Of a stretch of 8,455 nucleotides of DNA, positions 1 through 5,702 are shown one piece after another (within the stretch, counting starts at the first letter, position 1; each line of letters starts with the position of its first letter). Origin of the DNA: Deltaproteobacteria bacterium (GTDB lineage: Bacteria; JAUYMQ01); assembly GCA_030698575.1 (NCBI GenBank), contig JAUYMQ010000318.1, positions 1 to 8,455 on the forward strand, in the 5' to 3' direction. The notes beneath the pieces were generated by a model that searched no databases, was not told the origin of the DNA, and was given only the letters and a program-made list of their open reading frames with translations. The translations under genes and the position numbers were made by a program.

Positions 1-132
1 CGGTTCCATCATTCCGCGGACGTGAACCGCAACCTGGAACGAGTGTCCGTGGAGGCGAGCGCACTTATGCGCTGGCGGAACGTTCGGTAGCCGGTGCGCT
101 GCTTCAAACGTGAATTCTTTGAAGATCTCCAT
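1..132 (-). CDS. queD: 6-carboxytetrahydropterin synthase QueD, N-terminal part (partial)
   Basis: Only the first 44 codons are present; the gene continues past the left edge. QueD converts dihydroneopterin triphosphate to 6-carboxy-5,6,7,8-tetrahydropterin, the step before QueE in preQ0 synthesis. The peptide begins [15 protein letters not shown] and shows the family hallmarks in order: the zinc-ligand histidine in FEAAHRL (H13), the catalytic cysteine in HKCARLHGH (C24) and the two further zinc histidines of HGH (H28, H30). The ATG start at 132-130 is supported by a strong Shine-Dalgarno (AGGAGGA on the minus strand, plus positions 142-148) that overlaps the queE stop codon. Only 14 bases separate it from queE, so it is the next gene of the HTH-queC-queE-queD operon. 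The motif identity is strong despite the short length. Confidence 0.93.
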
Positions 133-146
133 GGCGCAACGTCCTC

Positions 147-788
147 CTAGGGCAATCCAACAAGCTTGTGCGTTTGAAGGCTCAGCCTCCATTGTGGGTG
201 CTCGAGGCAGTAACGAGCGGCCATCTCGGTGTTCTGCTGCACTTCGGGCCCATCCATCGGCTGTAGAAAGAAGTGTCTGAAGTCGAGAGCGGCATATCGC
301 TCGGGCTCACCACCGACTTGGCGGTAGACGAGCTTGAGCTCGTCACCCGATAGTTGGACTAGCTGCGCATTTGCCTTAGGACTGACGCAGAGCCAGTCGA
401 TGCCGGCCACCGCTGGGATTGTCCCGTTGCTTTCGACAGCCACCTCGAAGCCGACTTCGTGGAGAGCGGCGACAAGCGGCTCGTCCAGCTGCAGCATCGG
501 CTCACCACCGGTACACACGACAAGCGGTCGCAGTCTGCCGCTCGCCTCCATTCGCCATGTCGAATGCACAGCGGCGGCCAGCTCTTGCGCGGATGCGAAC
601 TTCCCTCCACCTGGGCCATCCGTGCCGAAAAAGTCCGTATCGCAGAACTGACAGACCGCCTGAGCCCTGTCCTCCTCACGGCCGGTCCAAAGGTTGCAAC
701 CCGCGAACCGAAGGAAAACGGCGGCCCGGCCGGTGTTCGCCCCCTCTCCTTGGAGGGTGTAATAGATCTCCTTCACCGCATAGCTCAC
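147..788 (-). CDS. queE: 7-carboxy-7-deazaguanine synthase QueE (radical SAM)
   Basis: QueE is a cytosolic radical SAM enzyme that contracts 6-carboxytetrahydropterin to 7-carboxy-7-deazaguanine. The 213-residue product has the typical N-terminal TLQGEG substrate motif (residues 11-16), a cluster motif of three cysteines spaced C31-x14-C46-x2-C49, GGEP at 94-97 (SAM binding) and a C-terminal LQTHK motif. The expanded C-x14-C-x2-C spacing replaces the usual radical SAM CX3CX2C and is known from one class of QueE, so it is a variant, not damage. The start is GTG at 788-786, which overlaps the queC stop as GTGA (4 bases) and implies translational coupling. An ATG at 781-779 lies in another frame. 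The length is normal for the family. Confidence 0.96.
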
Positions 789-1498
789 GCGGAAACCACA
801 GCCTCCGTCCGATAGTTGATCGGATCAACTGCTCCGGCTTCGGCGAAGCCCTTCAGCCGGAGTAGGCAGGAGTCACACCTACCGCAAGCCTCACCGGTTG
901 CGGATGGGTCATAACAGCTTGAGGTCAACGAGTAATCAACTCCGAGCTCGAGCCCACGGCGGATGATTTGGGCTTTCGAGAGCTGAATTAACGGTGAGTG
1001 AATCTTAAGGCGCTGGCGACCCTCGACCGCCGCTTTCGTGGCTCGGTTGGCCATCTGTTCGAATGCTGCGATGTACTCAGGTCGGCAGTCGGGATAGCCA
1101 CTGTAGTCGAGTGCATTCACTCCTATATAGACGTCGCTAGCGCCCAGTACCTCTGCCCAAGCCAGGGCGAATGACAGGAAGATCGTGTTGCGTGCAGGCA
1201 CGTACGTAACTGGGATGCCCGTGCCCATCTCTTCGACCGAGCGACCCTTGGGAACGGGGATGTCGCTTGTAAGGGCCGATCCACCGAACAGGCGAAGGTC
1301 GATATCCACCACGACATGCTGCGCGACGCCCATGGTCTGAGCGATTCGGCGCGCGGCCTCGAGTTCGAATGCATGGCGCTGTCCGTATCGGAACGACAGC
1401 GCGCAAGGCTCAAAGTGTTCCGCCTTGGCGATTACCAGCGTCGTCGTGGAATCCAGACCTCCACTCAGTAGCACGACCGCTTTAGGCTTCGTGTTCAT
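785..1498 (-). CDS. queC: 7-cyano-7-deazaguanine synthase QueC
   Basis: QueC is an ATP-dependent enzyme that turns 7-carboxy-7-deazaguanine plus ammonia into preQ0 (7-cyano-7-deazaguanine). The 237-residue protein has the PP-loop SGGLDS at residues 12-17, RYGQRH at 37-42, [10 protein letters not shown] at 100-109, the YPDCRPEY substrate motif at 135-142 and four C-terminal cysteines (C195, C205, C208, C211) that match the zinc site of canonical QueC. The ATG start at 1498-1496 has a GGGGGA Shine-Dalgarno about 7 bases upstream and overlaps the stop of the preceding HTH gene as ATGA. The stop overlaps the queE GTG. All expected residues are present, and nothing suggests one of the diverged QueC-like proteins of defence systems such as QatC. 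Confidence 0.97.
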
Positions 1499-1800
1499 GG
1501 TGTTTCCCCCGACGATCCGCCGTTGCCGTTGTTGAATAGACGCAGTTGCTGGTCGCTTTGTGGACTGATCGGTTCAACGCTAAGGGCGTACAATCGAATC
1601 GCGTCGACGTCACTGGCAGTGAACAGAACTCGACCCCTCCGATCTCGGTGACCGGCGGGTACCTGGCCGTCACGGCGCCAGCGCCAAATCGTCTGACGTG
1701 TTCTCCCAACTGCCGTCTCGACTTCATCGAGGGTGAAATACCGCACGCCCTGTATGTCGAGGATGGCCGGATCTCTCTTGCGTTGGCTTCGGGAGGGCAT
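1495..1800 (-). CDS. Small winged-HTH protein (MerR/excisionase type), first gene of the que operon
   Basis: This 101-residue protein has a basic N-terminus, then a helix-turn-helix region at about residues 22-73 ([20 protein letters not shown], followed by a basic wing and [13 protein letters not shown]). That is the layout of the MerR/excisionase HTH superfamily: helix, recognition helix with [11 protein letters not shown], hairpin wing, closing helix. The C-terminus is Ser/Gly/Asn-rich and probably disordered. Its stop overlaps the queC ATG (ATGA), so it is translated with the que genes. A promoter and an inverted repeat sit 50-85 bases upstream of its start. Inference: it may autoregulate the queC-E-D operon and the divergent queF. 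No close family with known function is recognised, and no clear Shine-Dalgarno precedes the ATG at 1800-1798, so the exact start is less certain. Confidence 0.8.
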
Positions 1801-1849
1801 GGCGCGTCGGCGCTGGTGTTGTTAAATCACGTTCTACGACGTATCGACA

Positions 1850-1876
1850 TGTAACTCCATATAACACTCCGTTACA
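1850..1876. promoter_or_regulatory. Candidate operator: inverted repeat TGTAAC-N15-GTTACA
   Basis: Perfect 6-bp half sites lie at 1850-1855 and 1871-1876, 21 bp apart start to start (two helical turns). One half lies in the promoter spacer and the other at the predicted transcription start of the HTH-que operon. That is a natural place for a repressor or a MerR-type regulator that acts on both divergent transcripts. The likely binder, the HTH protein at 1495-1800, is inferred from position only. Confidence 0.4.
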
Positions 1877-1885
1877 GGACGTCAA
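1858..1885 (-). promoter_or_regulatory. Sigma70-like promoter for the HTH-queC-queE-queD operon
   Basis: On the minus strand TTGACG (plus 1880-1885) is followed after 16 bases by TATATG (plus 1858-1863). The -35 matches the consensus at 5 of 6 positions and the -10 at 4 of 6. Transcription would start near 1851, about 50 bases before the HTH gene ATG. On the plus strand a TATAAC at 1860-1865 could serve as the -10 for divergent queF, but no good -35 is visible for it. Confidence 0.55.
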
Positions 1886-1891
1886 GACCCA

Positions 1892-2320
1892 ATGAGACCG
1901 CGCACCACCATGCCGAGGGCCGGCCCGCTGCCAAGACCCGCTCACCCCGATGAGGCCAAGCGCTCACTCAAGTCCGAAGCCTTTCACGCAGCGGGAGTGC
2001 AGATAGTTACGCTGACGGCCGTTGAGTTCACGTCGGTCTGTCCAAAGACGGGGCAACCGGACTTCGGCTCGGTGACTATAGAGTACTCGCCACGGAAGCT
2101 CTGCCTGGAGTCCAGATCGCTCAAGTACTACTTGTGGTCCTACCGACAAGTGGGGGCTTACTGCGAGACCATCGCCGGCAGGATCGCTGACGACATCGCA
2201 CTAGCAATTTCTCCTAGAACTCTGGTTGTCCGAGTGTCCCAGAATGTCAGGGGCGGGATAACGATCACGGCGGCAGCTGAACGAAGGGGAGGGCGAGCGA
2301 GGCGCGGAGCCGCGAAGTGA
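1892..2320 (+). CDS. queF: NADPH-dependent preQ0 reductase QueF (type I)
   Basis: QueF reduces the nitrile of preQ0 to the aminomethyl group of preQ1, committing the pathway to queuosine-type products. The 142-residue protein is the short single-domain (type I) form. EFTSVCPKTGQPDF at 45-58 supplies the thioimide-forming cysteine (C50) and the catalytic aspartate (D57). ESRSLKYYLW at 73-82 is the QueF motif, and RGGITIT at 120-126 closes the T-fold. Two departures from the Bacillus-type enzyme are visible: Arg75 where the E(S/L)K motif has Lys, and AYCE (C91-E92) where FHE is common. The T-fold core and both catalytic residues are intact, so activity is likely. It is divergent from the HTH-queC-E-D operon across a 91-base spacer. 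The ATG at 1892 has only a distant AGGA upstream; the in-frame ATG at 1910 is an alternative start. Confidence 0.9.
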   Translation: MRPRTTMPRAGPLPRPAHPDEAKRSLKSEAFHAAGVQIVTLTAVEFTSVCPKTGQPDFGSVTIEYSPRKLCLESRSLKYYLWSYRQVGAYCETIAGRIADDIALAISPRTLVVRVSQNVRGGITITAAAERRGGRARRGAAK

Positions 2321-2394
2321 CGGCGGGCTGGGGATGGAAACTGACCACCGATAAAGCCCTGTGGATTGGCCAGTCTGAGCGTGTAAACATCTTC

Positions 2395-2424
2395 TTGACT
2401 CGCCGCGCGCGGGGGGCCTACACT
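2395..2424 (+). promoter_or_regulatory. Sigma70-like promoter upstream of the HTH/coiled-coil gene
   Basis: TTGACT (2395-2400) and TACACT (2419-2424) are separated by 18 bases with a GC-only core. Transcription would begin near 2431, leaving a leader of about 108 bases before the ATG at 2539. It lies 75 bases after the queF stop codon, in an otherwise featureless spacer with no queF terminator. Confidence 0.5.
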
Positions 2425-2460
2425 TCCCGCAGCCGGAAGACATAGCGCGCCAAGACTAAG

Positions 2461-2521
2461 ACGCGCCGCAACTGAAAGAGCGGGAAGTGTGCCCGCCTCA
2501 GTTGCGGCGCGTTTTGCTTTT
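2461..2521 (+). terminator. Strong intrinsic terminator inside the leader of the HTH/coiled-coil gene
   Basis: A perfect 15-bp GC-rich stem (2461-2475 with 2498-2512) has an inner 5-bp stem (gcggg 2480-2484 with cccgc 2492-2496) in its loop and is followed directly by TTTTGCTTTT. It ends only 18 bases before the likely ATG at 2539, so it is an attenuator for that gene or the end of a small RNA that starts near 2431. GCGCG at 2445-2449 can pair with CGCGC at 2462-2466, in the left arm, and would act as an antiterminator. Confidence 0.75.
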
Positions 2522-2538
2522 GACCCATGGAGAACACA

Positions 2539-3528
2539 ATGAAGAGACCGAGGAAGGGCCGGTCGAACGGCCGGGATGGACTCCTGTCAGTGGGCGATGT
2601 CGCCCAGCGGCTGGGAATGTCGGAAGATGTGGTCCGTTCGCTCATCGATAGCGGCGAGCTGAAAGCTGTCCGAACTGGTGGTGGACATAGACGCTGCCCA
2701 CCCGAGGAGGTGAAGCAGTTCAAGACGAGGGGCGGGAGACGCAAGCCCAACCGCGCGGCTGGGCCCAGGACTAACGCGCCTCGGTCGACCGCCCCGCCCC
2801 CGGTTGAAATCGAGGACGAGGAACGCCGCCTCCAAGAGTACCAGGCGGAAATCGAGCACGAAGCAGCTCGGGAACGCACCCGAGCCGAAGACGAGCGGCT
2901 GGAGGGGTGGAAGAAGTACGGCCGCGACTATGCGCGTTGGAGCATCCTGCCGTCGGAGTGGCATGTCCTGGTTGTCGAAGACCTCGAAACATTCGTCACA
3001 ACAAGGCGCATCCCGCCGACGCTCCAGGCTTGGGAGGCTCAGCAGATCGTTCAAGCGCGCGTCAACGCGCTCGTCAAGGAGTATCGCGACGCGGAGAGGG
3101 CCCGCCAGGAGAAGGAGCGTGAGGCCGCCGAGGAGCGTCAGCGGGTCGAGGCCGAGCGCAAGAGGGCGGAAGATGAACGCCGCCAGAAGGAGCGCGATGC
3201 CGAGGAGCAGCGCCGCAAGCAAGAGCACGAGGCTGCGGAACAACGCCGCAAGCAGGAGGAAGCCGACCAAAAACTCAAGGCCCTCATCGACCACGGAAAC
3301 AGCCACGCGTGGAGCGAGACAATCAGCTGGAACTCCTCCGAGGCAGAGCGGGCGCGCCGCGACGTCGCCAGGGCGCTCAAGGAAGAGGTGAAGGCCGACT
3401 GGACGGAGGCCGAGGTGGAGGATCTGGTCGACGACGTGCTGTATGAGGACGACGAGGGCGAGGAATCTGACGAGGACGAATCTGAAGAAGAGGAATCTGA
3501 AGAGGAGGAAGGCGACGAAAGCTGGTGA
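2539..3528 (+). CDS. Unrecognised MerR/excisionase-type HTH protein with coiled coils and an acidic tail
   Basis: The 329-residue cytosolic protein is modular. An HTH of the MerR/excisionase type lies at about 16-62 (LLSVGDVAQRLGMSEDVVRSL, then a wing with RTGGGHRR and PPEEVKQF). A basic, Pro-rich linker spans 64-88. A first charged helix at 90-125 leads to a folded-looking Trp/Tyr-containing stretch at 125-180. A long Glu/Arg/Lys/Gln coiled coil covers 181-250, another helical part 255-300, and a tail of almost only Glu/Asp/Ser ends the protein (303-328), including ESDED, ESEEE, ESEEE pentads. I prefer the ATG at 2539 because GGAG (2529-2532) is well spaced before it, while the ATG four codons earlier has no Shine-Dalgarno. 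The promoter and terminator upstream suggest attenuation control. The function is unknown; DNA binding is likely, and an oligomeric element-control or partition-like role is possible. Confidence 0.85.
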   Translation: MKRPRKGRSNGRDGLLSVGDVAQRLGMSEDVVRSLIDSGELKAVRTGGGHRRCPPEEVKQFKTRGGRRKPNRAAGPRTNAPRSTAPPPVEIEDEERRLQEYQAEIEHEAARERTRAEDERLEGWKKYGRDYARWSILPSEWHVLVVEDLETFVTTRRIPPTLQAWEAQQIVQARVNALVKEYRDAERARQEKEREAAEERQRVEAERKRAEDERRQKERDAEEQRRKQEHEAAEQRRKQEEADQKLKALIDHGNSHAWSETISWNSSEAERARRDVARALKEEVKADWTEAEVEDLVDDVLYEDDEGEESDEDESEEEESEEEEGDESW

Positions 3529-3574
3529 ATCTCGACATGGAATCTGGGAAACCTGGACCAGATTCCCGAGATTC
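3527..3574 (+). repeat. Nested inverted repeat (hairpin) at the end of the HTH/coiled-coil gene
   Basis: Two perfect inverted repeats are nested: GAATCTCG (3527-3534) with CGAGATTC (3567-3574), and GGAATCTGG (3539-3547) with CCAGATTCC (3558-3566). Together they give 17 base pairs with a 4-base bulge on the left side and a 10-base loop. The outer arm starts on the last two bases of the stop codon. No T-run follows, so it is not a standard intrinsic terminator. The segment gaccagattc recurs 30 bp later (3556-3565 and 3586-3595). Confidence 0.55.
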
Positions 3575-3596
3575 GCAGCCTCGTAGACCAGATTCT

Positions 3597-3647
3597 ATGA
3601 GCACCCCCACGGTCGTTTTCCCGCTTTCTGGGACCGTCCGGCCGTGA
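3597..3647 (+). CDS. Possible 16-residue leader peptide ahead of the excisionase-like gene
   Basis: An ATG at 3597 opens a 16-codon frame (MSTPTVVFPLSGTVRP) whose TGA overlaps the GTG start of the next gene as GTGA, the same coupling seen in the que operon. There is no Shine-Dalgarno before it, so it may be chance. If translated, it would couple translation into the excisionase-like gene, which itself has a weak ribosome binding site. Confidence 0.2.
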   Translation: MSTPTVVFPLSGTVRP

Positions 3648-4021
3648 CGCGCCACGATTTCGTCGCGCGCTGGCGCGCCCGCCGCGACGAACTCGCCCGT
3701 CTCGGCGCCCAAGTGGACGGCGCGAAGCTCTGCGATGAAGTGCTCGCGGACGTTGACGCCCTTCTAACCGGCGAGGAGGAGGCTCTTTTGGACCTCCATG
3801 AAGCCGCAACTCGTTCCGGATACTCGAGCGACCATCTCCGCCGTTTACATCGGCTTGGCAAGCTGCCCGCTCGCCGAGACGGCCGACGCCTATTCTTCCG
3901 CGCCGGAGATCTGCCCAAGAAACCGACCGTCGTTGACGCCCGGCCGGTCCGGGCGTACGATCCCATCGCCGATGCTCGGCGGGTCGCCACCCGGACCTCA
4001 TCTGGAGGTTCGAATGACTGA
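3644..4021 (+). CDS. Small HTH protein, probable excisionase / directionality factor
   Basis: The 125-residue protein has a basic N-terminal helix, a linking helix and an excisionase/MerR-type HTH at about 50-90 (LDLHEAATRSGYSSDHLRRL, then LGKLPARRDGRRLFF, the wing, and RAGDLP). The C-terminus is basic and probably disordered. It sits directly upstream of a tyrosine integrase and overlaps its start by 8 bases (4014-4021), the usual place for a recombination directionality factor, which bends attachment-site DNA to favour excision. The start is GTG at 3644; only a distant GGGA precedes it. The assignment as excisionase rests on fold and position; a transcriptional regulator of the integrase is the alternative. 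It is larger than typical phage Xis proteins. Confidence 0.75.
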   Translation: MTRHDFVARWRARRDELARLGAQVDGAKLCDEVLADVDALLTGEEEALLDLHEAATRSGYSSDHLRRLHRLGKLPARRDGRRLFFRAGDLPKKPTVVDARPVRAYDPIADARRVATRTSSGGSND

Positions 4022-5264
4022 ACGGCGACTCCCAATTCCGGAACGCCCCTGGCACAAGAGCAAGAGCGGCCGCTGGTCCCTCTCGCTCGGCGTCAGGGGG
4101 CTGAAAGTGCGAGTCCAGCAGCACAAGCCAGGCGGCACGTTTCAACGGGTGTTTCGGGTAGGCCGACGCGTCTCGTATGCATCGCTCGGCACAACCGATC
4201 GCCAGGAAGCGCGCCGGCTCGCGATCGAGTTCATTCGCGAGGTCGAGAAGGGCAAGAAGATCAACCTGGCCGAGCCGCTGACGCTCGAAAGACTGTGGGA
4301 CCGTTACCAGCAGGAGGCGTCGAGCTACCGCGGCAACCTTGAACGGACGCGGAAGCAGAAAAAGACCGATGTCCGGCTACTCATCGCCGGGCTCGGTGCC
4401 ACAAAGCGGGTGGAGCACCTGACCAAAAACGACGTGGAGCGCTACGTCGCGATGCGTCGCACTGGTCATGGATGGCCGGATGGTCGCGATACCAAGCCGG
4501 TGCGGGCCCGGACGATCCAAGGCGAGATCAAGCAGCTGCGCCAGATGATCTACTGGGCCATGAGCGAGCGGTTGCCCGACGGATCATGGCTGCTCGAGAA
4601 CAACCCGCTTCGCGGTGTGAAGTTGCCGAAGGAAGAGGACCCGCGCCGGCCGATCGCGACGTATGACCGGTTCCTGAAGCTCAGGGCAGCCGCCCAGGAT
4701 ATGGCGGCTACGGCGCCGCAGCAGCGGGGCCGCGACCGGTGGAAACGCTGGGAATTGGCGCTCGTGCTGGCGGAAGCGACCGGGGCACGCATCGGGGCGA
4801 TCAGCGGTCTCCGCTGGTCGGACATCTGCTTTGACCCGCCTGAAATCAAGTTCAGGGCGGAGTTCGACAAGCGGGGCCGTGATCGGGTGGTCCCTATCCA
4901 CGAGGCGTTGGCCGAGGAACTTCGCGGCTTCAAAGTGAAATTCGCGGCGGTTGGTGACGGGTGGCTGTTCCCGTGCGCCGACAAGGACGACCACTGGCCT
5001 CGGGAGATCTTCGGCGAGCTGTACGACCGCGTGGAGCGGCATGCGGGTCTGCCGCATCTGAAGGGCGGTCGCTTCCACCCGTTCAGAAGGAAGTGGGCCA
5101 CCGAGCGAAAGAACATGTCGCTCGTGGACGTGATGGCGGCTGGCGGGTGGCGTGACGCGCAGACGTTGCATAGCTGCTACCAGTTGGCGACGACGGACGG
5201 CATGCTCGAAGTGATGAGCTCACCGGTCAAGCTACGGGATCGCAAGGCAGTGGGTCGGAACTAG
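4014..5264 (+). CDS. int: Tyrosine recombinase / site-specific integrase
   Basis: This 416-residue protein catalyses integration and excision of the element at a tRNA attachment site. The N-terminal part (about 1-90) holds the arm-binding region (WSLSLGVRGLKVRV, then YASLGTTDRQEARR), 91-185 is the SAM-like core-binding domain, and 215-400 is the catalytic domain. The catalytic residues visible are R259 (TGARIGAISGLRW), K286 (FDKRGRDRVV), H355 and R358 (HPFR), W379 in the usual second-histidine position (GGWRD) and the nucleophile Y389 (LHSCYQ). I chose the ATG at 4014 because GGAGG lies 5 bases before it; the frame is open for 72 codons upstream, but that part is another frame of the excisionase-like gene. 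It overlaps that gene by 8 bases and reads toward tRNA-Gln, 366 bases away. All six catalytic positions are filled, so it should be active. Confidence 0.95.
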   Translation: MTERRLPIPERPWHKSKSGRWSLSLGVRGLKVRVQQHKPGGTFQRVFRVGRRVSYASLGTTDRQEARRLAIEFIREVEKGKKINLAEPLTLERLWDRYQQEASSYRGNLERTRKQKKTDVRLLIAGLGATKRVEHLTKNDVERYVAMRRTGHGWPDGRDTKPVRARTIQGEIKQLRQMIYWAMSERLPDGSWLLENNPLRGVKLPKEEDPRRPIATYDRFLKLRAAAQDMAATAPQQRGRDRWKRWELALVLAEATGARIGAISGLRWSDICFDPPEIKFRAEFDKRGRDRVVPIHEALAEELRGFKVKFAAVGDGWLFPCADKDDHWPREIFGELYDRVERHAGLPHLKGGRFHPFRRKWATERKNMSLVDVMAAGGWRDAQTLHSCYQLATTDGMLEVMSSPVKLRDRKAVGRN

Positions 5265-5290
5265 GGGACGGCCGAGAGACGGAGGTGTTA

Positions 5291-5497
5291 GTGGGGATTC
5301 ATCAGTGGCACTCCGGCAAGGTGGTCCTCGTTTGGGTGGCGGCGGTGTCCCTGCTGATCCTATCGTTTCTTGTCGGCCAGGCTGTTTCCTTTAGACAGGA
5401 ATCGCTGGGCATTGCGATCGCTTTTTCAGGGTTGGCTTGGCCCATGGTCGCATTTGCGATCTCCTGGGTGTGGTTCGGCGGCCGCGAACGGAAGTGA
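5291..5497 (+). CDS. Small two-pass inner-membrane protein, unrecognised
   Basis: This predicted 68-residue protein has a short soluble N-terminus (MGIHQWHSGK), a hydrophobic segment at about 11-29 (VVLVWVAAVSLLILSFLVG), a short polar loop (SFRQES), a second hydrophobic segment at about 39-60 (IAIAFSGLAWPMVAFAISWVWF) and a basic end (GGRERK). The GTG at 5291 is preferred because GGAGG lies 5 bases upstream; the GTG at 5285 overlaps that ribosome binding site. It follows the integrase by 26 bases in the same direction and is the last gene before the attachment region. No family is recognised. Confidence 0.65.
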   Translation: MGIHQWHSGKVVLVWVAAVSLLILSFLVGQAVSFRQESLGIAIAFSGLAWPMVAFAISWVWFGGRERK

Positions 5498-5500
5498 GAG

Positions 5501-5527
5501 ACGCCAGTGCAAAGTTTGCATTGGCGT
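5501..5527. repeat. Near-perfect palindrome in the attachment region
   Basis: ACGCCAGTGCAAA (5501-5513) is the reverse complement of 5515-5527 except for one position, which still allows a G-U pair. It starts four bases after the stop of the small membrane protein. No T-run follows on either strand. It may be an integrase/excisionase binding site or an mRNA end structure. Confidence 0.5.
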
Positions 5528-5530
5528 GGC

Positions 5531-5546
5531 GATTCCAGGAGGGGCA
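5531..5546 (+). repeat. Inverted copy of the tRNA-Gln 3' end
   Basis: Fifteen of 16 bases (GATTCCAGGAGGGGCA) match the 3' end of the tRNA-Gln gene (T-arm plus acceptor strand), but on the opposite strand; the tRNA end itself is at 5631-5646. The copies are 84 bp apart and point toward each other. It could be a remnant of an earlier insertion or part of the recombination site. Confidence 0.6.
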
Positions 5547-5554
5547 GCGGCGTG

Positions 5555-5576
5555 AACGCTTGTAAAACGCTTGTAA
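5555..5576. repeat. Exact 11-bp tandem repeat, candidate integrase arm sites
   Basis: aacgcttgtaa occurs twice without a gap (5555-5565 and 5566-5576), a period of one helical turn, 54 bases from the tRNA-Gln 3' end. Short direct repeats at this distance from the crossover site are typical of arm-type sites bound by the N-terminal domain of tyrosine integrases or of excisionase sites. They also lie just beyond the T-run of the tRNA terminator. Confidence 0.55.
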
Positions 5577-5581
5577 GCCCC

Positions 5582-5626
5582 AAAAACAGGAGAAGCGCGA
5601 CACGCTTTATCCGCGCATCGCGCTTC
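5582..5626 (-). terminator. Intrinsic terminator of tRNA-Gln
   Basis: Read on the minus strand, the 9-bp perfect stem GAAGCGCGA / TCGCGCTTC (plus 5618-5626 and 5592-5600, 17-base loop) begins three bases after the tRNA end and is followed by TCCTG and five T (plus 5586-5582). It would end the tRNA-Gln transcript before the inverted tRNA copy and the tandem repeats. If the element is inserted here, the terminator is element DNA that replaces the host one. Confidence 0.6.
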
Positions 5627-5629
5627 GAG

Positions 5630-5646
5630 TTGCCCCTCCTGGGATC
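5630..5646. other. Candidate attachment site core in the tRNA-Gln 3' end
   Basis: The 3' half of the T-arm and the acceptor strand of tRNA-Gln face the integrase gene, with palindromes and tandem repeats between them. Tyrosine integrases commonly cross over in such tRNA 3' ends and leave a direct repeat at the far end of the element. No direct repeat of this segment is found in the remaining window to the left, so the element end is outside and the core borders are unknown. Confidence 0.45.
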
Positions 5647-5702
5647 GAACCAGGACTCTCCTGATCCAGAGTCAGGCGTGTTGCCAGTTACACCAAGGGG
5701 CA
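5630..5702 (-). tRNA. tRNA-Gln (anticodon CUG)
   Basis: A complete 73-base cloverleaf is visible on the minus strand: acceptor TGCCCCT/AGGGGCA, D-stem GTGT/ACAC, anticodon stem CCTGA/TCAGG with loop CTCTGGA (anticodon CTG, codon CAG), a 5-base variable loop, T-stem CCTGG/CCAGG with TTCGATC, discriminator A at 5630. It begins with U, as bacterial tRNA-Gln does. CCA is not encoded. Its 3' end faces the integrase, making it the likely attachment gene. Confidence 0.96.

Follow-up and report, generated by a model that had tools for sequence, protein, structure and literature searches.

What are genes for the synthesis of preQ1 doing next to an integrase and a tRNA gene? The sequence-only reading of this locus had left three options, namely a DNA modification based on preQ1, a transferred queuosine pathway, or host genes lying outside a mobile element, and we compared the locus with its source genome and with other que loci in order to weigh them. 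The window, that is the whole stretch of 8455 bp that was analysed, is a complete contig (C231) of a metagenome-assembled genome (MAG) of 4.1 Mb in 653 contigs, a fragmented bin with 4.6% contamination, and because the contig ends where the window does, no leftward extension is possible. Reading from the left end, the minus strand holds a closely packed group made up of a queD fragment, queE, queC and a small HTH gene; the plus strand then carries queF, an excisionase-like HTH protein, a second HTH protein and a tyrosine recombinase, and to the right of the recombinase come a small membrane ORF, the genes for tRNA-Gln(CTG) and tRNA-Ala, and part of a UPF0182 gene. The que genes had been placed on the integrase side of the tRNA-Gln, and we confirm this for queD, which the contig end truncates, and for queE, queC and the divergent queF. 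No phage structural or replication gene was found among the ORFs of the window with PHROGs, the part of the element beyond the contig end being unread, and the window has neither a biosynthetic tailoring gene nor a preQ1 riboswitch (Rfam). The que part comprises the following features.

1 to 132, minus strand: queD, first 44 codons, 6-carboxytetrahydropterin synthase, cut by the contig end (PF01242, E 8e-12; TIGR03367)
147 to 788, minus strand: queE, 7-carboxy-7-deazaguanine synthase of the Cx14CxxC subfamily (TIGR04508, 346 bits against a cut-off of 240)
785 to 1498, minus strand: queC, 7-cyano-7-deazaguanine (preQ0) synthase (PF06508, 252 bits)
1495 to 1800, minus strand: small HTH_17/MerR-like DNA-binding protein, with a 4-nt overlap with queC (PF12728, E 3e-7)
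1892 to 2320, plus strand: queF, preQ1 synthase (nitrile reductase) of the unimodular type, divergent from the operon (TIGR03139, 107 bits against a cut-off of 87)

QueE, QueC and QueF all exceed the curated cut-offs, and the QueD fragment passes that of Pfam despite its truncation and has the H...CxxxHGH motif. The solved QueE structure 4njg aligns end to end with the window QueE (E 1e-87), QueC has the PP-loop SGGLDST and the zinc motif CGRCDSC (structural matches 2pg3 and 3bl5), and QueF keeps the catalytic Cys and Asp (CPKTGQPDF) and the ESRSLK binding motif (4f8b, E 2e-16), its FHE motif having Cys instead of His. A de novo preQ1 pathway is thus represented by family-level matches for QueD (partial), QueE, QueC and QueF and, in sequence and alignments, by the active-site motifs of the last three. 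Overlaps of 4 nt join queE to queC and queC to the HTH gene at 1495 to 1800, which is probably the operon's first gene and its regulator; its product has no relatives in the plasmid collection.

The MAG holds a separate queuosine set, on which the sequence-only reading was silent, with queA, tgt and queC on one contig (C535), a queF with the usual FHE motif on another (C133), queE on a third (C632) and two queD with folE on a fourth (C323), and this makes the window genes a second set, alongside the queuosine genes already there. The window and host copies are 26% identical for QueE, 40% for QueF and 62% for QueC and, to judge from these values, are not recent duplicates. Nor does the bin contain the remainder of queD that the contig lacks. 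The host folE (GTP cyclohydrolase I; locus L050 on C323, 4172-5743), which directly follows the two tandem queD-like genes, contains an apparent in-frame intein.

The DNA around the que genes had been described as less GC-rich than the other flank, and this holds, with 59.7% GC at 1-2320 and 63-64% at 2321-5600 against 69-70% in the right flank. The tetranucleotide signature of 1-2320 falls below all 60 equal-size control chunks of the MAG, whereas the integrase part lies at the 17th-22nd percentile and the right flank at the 72nd-92nd, the que DNA being the most atypical part of the contig. Because oligonucleotide usage at 1-2320 is beyond all controls and the right flank fits the MAG, the que set looks acquired and the right side of the contig native; since the integrase half is compositionally milder, the two halves may be separate acquisitions.

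The integrase module and its surroundings consist of these features.

2395 to 2424, plus strand: promoter-like TTGACT-N18-TACACT upstream of the excisionase-like gene (2 found against 1.0 expected)
2451 to 2522, plus strand: strong terminator-like hairpin (inverted repeat) with a U-rich tail, located within the leader that precedes the excisionase-like gene
2539 to 3528, plus strand: HTH protein of excisionase type, with a coiled coil and an acidic tail (TIGR01764, 42 bits; phrog_66; alternative start 2527)
3644 to 4021, plus strand: another small HTH_17-like protein, encoded immediately before the integrase (PF12728, E 4e-4, below the cut-off)
4014 to 5264, plus strand: tyrosine recombinase (integrase) (PF00589, 46 bits; phrog_1, 140 bits)
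5530 to 5546, no strand assigned: inverted 17-nt copy of the tRNA-Gln 3′ end (16/17, 94%; score reached by 0 of 200 local shuffles)
5555 to 5576, no strand assigned: perfect 11-bp tandem repeat, AACGCTTGTAA twice
5629 to 5702, minus strand: intact tRNA-Gln (CTG), its 3′ end facing the integrase

The active-site residues R, K, HxxR, W and Y of the integrase are readable in the sequence, and the gene is directed toward the tRNA 3′ end and stops 365 bp short of it, an arrangement typical of elements inserted at such a site. The tRNA-Gln (CTG) at 5629 to 5702 is likely the attachment site. The att-like repeats attributed to this place, however, turned out to be of another kind: a direct repeat of the tRNA 3′ end was found neither in the contig, beyond which the far end of the element lies (best direct match scoring 8, with a shuffle range of 8-12), nor elsewhere in the MAG at up to 2 mismatches over 20 nt, and the repeats actually present are the inverted 17-nt copy and the 11-bp tandem repeat. 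The inverted copy, located in the interval between integrase and tRNA at a distance of 84 bp from the original, does not qualify as the other half of an att pair, and the tandem repeat at 5555 to 5576 could possibly be an integrase arm site; it is plausible that one att side is here and the other off the contig. The locus resembles tRNA-targeted integrative islands with a tyrosine recombinase in having an integrase and an excisionase-like gene beside the 3′ end of an intact tRNA, but differs from them in its inverted tRNA-end copy and in showing no far att site on the contig. Relatives of the integrase were absent from the viral contigs, phages and plasmids searched, and those of the excisionase-like gene from the viral contigs.

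The excisionase-like protein has a long, charged coiled coil, and its acidic tail is encoded by 15-bp repeats. Upstream of it, at 2418-2522, a perfect 11-nt inverted repeat (ACACTTCCCGC / GCGGGAAGTGT) joins the promoter-like -10 region to the loop of the very stable hairpin (fold of 2430-2545, z -5.2, MFE -48.9), and this stretch looks like a regulated leader of the gene.

In regards to QueF, the window protein forms one group at 53-61% identity with six others, five of them from Bacillaceae and one from a Gemmatimonadota MAG, the next relatives being clearly separate. The His-to-Cys change in the FHE motif is common to this clade. We considered it as a sign of new chemistry and rejected the idea, given that the position is variable across QueF-II relatives (H, M, Y, C, Q or F) and that the FCE-type protein is the only convincing QueF in each of the six clade genomes. 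In none of these six (L131-L136, queF at about 10001-10400) was a queC or queE match found within 10 kb of queF, and since the clade QueFs stand apart from such genes in this way the window set may be a mosaic.

One reading is that the genes serve an element-borne DNA modification, in which a DpdA-type transglycosylase beyond the contig's left end would put preQ1 (or preQ0) in DNA and shield the element from restriction, as in Dp-1 and HVTV-1. In its favour, the host has no need of the additional que genes, which lie on what looks like a mobile element, and the operon is cut at queD. Streptococcus phage Dp-1 and Halovirus HVTV-1, which have queF-type genes, contain dPreQ1 in their DNA (PMC6884629), so that the claim that queF points to preQ1 is sound for the DNA of some phages, although queF alone does not show that preQ1 is in DNA. 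As to the dpdA/tgt homologues and restriction genes proposed as a check, neither the bacterial DpdA (PDLC02807) nor the phage DpdA (phrog_887) nor DpdB (PF14072, a model that does recognise DpdB) is present in the MAG at E <= 1, the window included and the DNA left of queD unseen, the sole PF01702 match in the MAG is the canonical tgt, and the window has no restriction gene. This MAG-wide negative for DpdA and DpdB is limited because the rest of queD is missing from the bin and the far part of the element is probably unbinned. Stronger is the local comparison with 80 viral contigs carrying QueF and 80 chromosomal queF loci, where a DpdA/TGT-like gene occurs in 62/80 of the former, 57 of these at most 1 kb from queF (median gap 218 bp), and in 0/80 of the latter, and the window has none. 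With the QueC of six chromosomal que loci the window QueC shares 60-65% identity, with viral QueC no more than 43% and with plasmid QueC beside DpdA only 30-37%, and it is of the bacterial chromosomal type; the viral contigs contain neither a close QueC relative nor an exact 24-mer from queD. The closest plasmid relatives of QueE are mixed, some lying in Dpd islands (61-65%) and others not. Bacterial Dpd islands are defined in a large survey by dpdA plus dpdB, with dPreQ0 or dADG as products, and about a quarter of them have preQ0 genes nearby (PMC11888242). The window shares with these islands a mobile-looking context with queC, queD and queE, and with some of them a QueE of its subfamily, but it has no dpdA, dpdB or restriction genes, its MAG has no dpdA or dpdB, its QueC is of another type and it has queF. 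With the phage dPreQ1 clusters of Dp-1 and HVTV-1 it shares queF with preQ0 genes on mobile DNA, but it lacks both the DpdA beside queF and phage structural genes, and its QueC has low identity to viral QueC (at most 43%). As far as it can be read, the window is neither a phage dPreQ1 cluster nor a Dpd island as defined. The option of a preQ1-based DNA modification is therefore not supported, none of these marker genes having been found and the enzymes being of bacterial chromosomal type, and we regard it as unlikely; that a bacterial integrative island produces its own preQ1 and installs it as dPreQ1 in DNA through a transglycosylase left of queD, as a preQ1 counterpart of the preQ0-based Dpd islands, seems to us quite improbable. 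On the evidence, a transferred tRNA-type pathway is preferable to DNA modification.

It could also be that the que genes are a resident chromosomal cluster beside a tRNA-Gln hotspot and that only a small integrase module (about 2.5-5.6 kb) is mobile, so that they would be the host genes of the third option. A queF divergent from queC-queE is normal on chromosomes, being seen also at loci L180, L187, L203 and L208, and composition changes again near 2.3 kb; however, a second att site between 2320 and 3644, to which the sequence-only reading had pointed as one test of its cargo view, was looked for and none was found there or anywhere left of the tRNA. Because the que DNA is atypical beyond all 60 controls, the host set is on other contigs and no such site was seen, we disfavour this option, and only disfavour it because the far att site is off the contig; it is doubtful, if the least so of the alternatives. 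An assembly or binning artefact, in which que-plus-integrase DNA of another organism, with that organism's ordinary que genes, was joined or binned here, would agree with the fragmented, partly contaminated bin and the foreign composition of the left half, but the right flank fits the bin well, UPF0182 and tRNA-Gln(CTG) are not duplicated in it and the layout matches that of an integrated element, so that we give it little credence. Pathways for pyrrolopyrimidine-type secondary metabolites use dedicated que copies, and preQ0 or preQ1 might be such a precursor here; with no biosynthetic tailoring gene in the window this is very improbable indeed.

On balance, and with moderate confidence, we favour a second, horizontally acquired, bacterial-type preQ1 gene set, probably in an integrative island at the 3′ end of tRNA-Gln(CTG) and feeding host tRNA queuosine. 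Among the options raised at the outset a transferred queuosine pathway is the best fit, for its preQ1 part only, given the atypical DNA, the second set, the chromosomal-type QueC, the queF divergence shared with chromosomal loci, a QueF clade whose other members are each the sole convincing QueF of their genome, and the lack of DpdA in the window and the MAG. The que genes would be cargo of the island, and the HTH-queC-queE-queD operon with the divergent queF would lead from dihydroneopterin triphosphate, supplied by the host FolE, through 7-carboxy-7-deazaguanine and preQ0 to preQ1, as the intact and specifically assigned enzymes suggest. The preQ1 would most likely enter the host Tgt/QueA route, for which tgt and queA are present, and end as queuosine in tRNA, the island providing a redundant or differently regulated supply. 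The window is like the bacterial de novo preQ1/queuosine pathway in its four enzymes, operon-like order, intact active-site motifs and queF divergence, and unlike it in being a second set that adjoins an integrase and a tRNA, has its own HTH gene first and carries a QueF of a separate clade. Against this explanation, the operon runs off the contig with the genes after queD unseen, a redundant preQ1 set is without obvious benefit, and Dpd islands on plasmids contain some of the near relatives of QueE. The fragmented bin, which makes a chimeric contig conceivable, and the milder composition of the integrase half also count against it.

The locus is moderately unusual, a second preQ1 set beside an integrase, all parts of which are of known kinds. 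Should the que genes be true cargo, they show that the preQ1 half of the pathway to queuosine can move as one unit into a genome already equipped with it, which would be a caution against equating every mobile que cluster with DNA modification, and the presence of DpdA beside queF, common on the viral contigs and absent from the chromosomal loci, offers a simple criterion for sorting such clusters.
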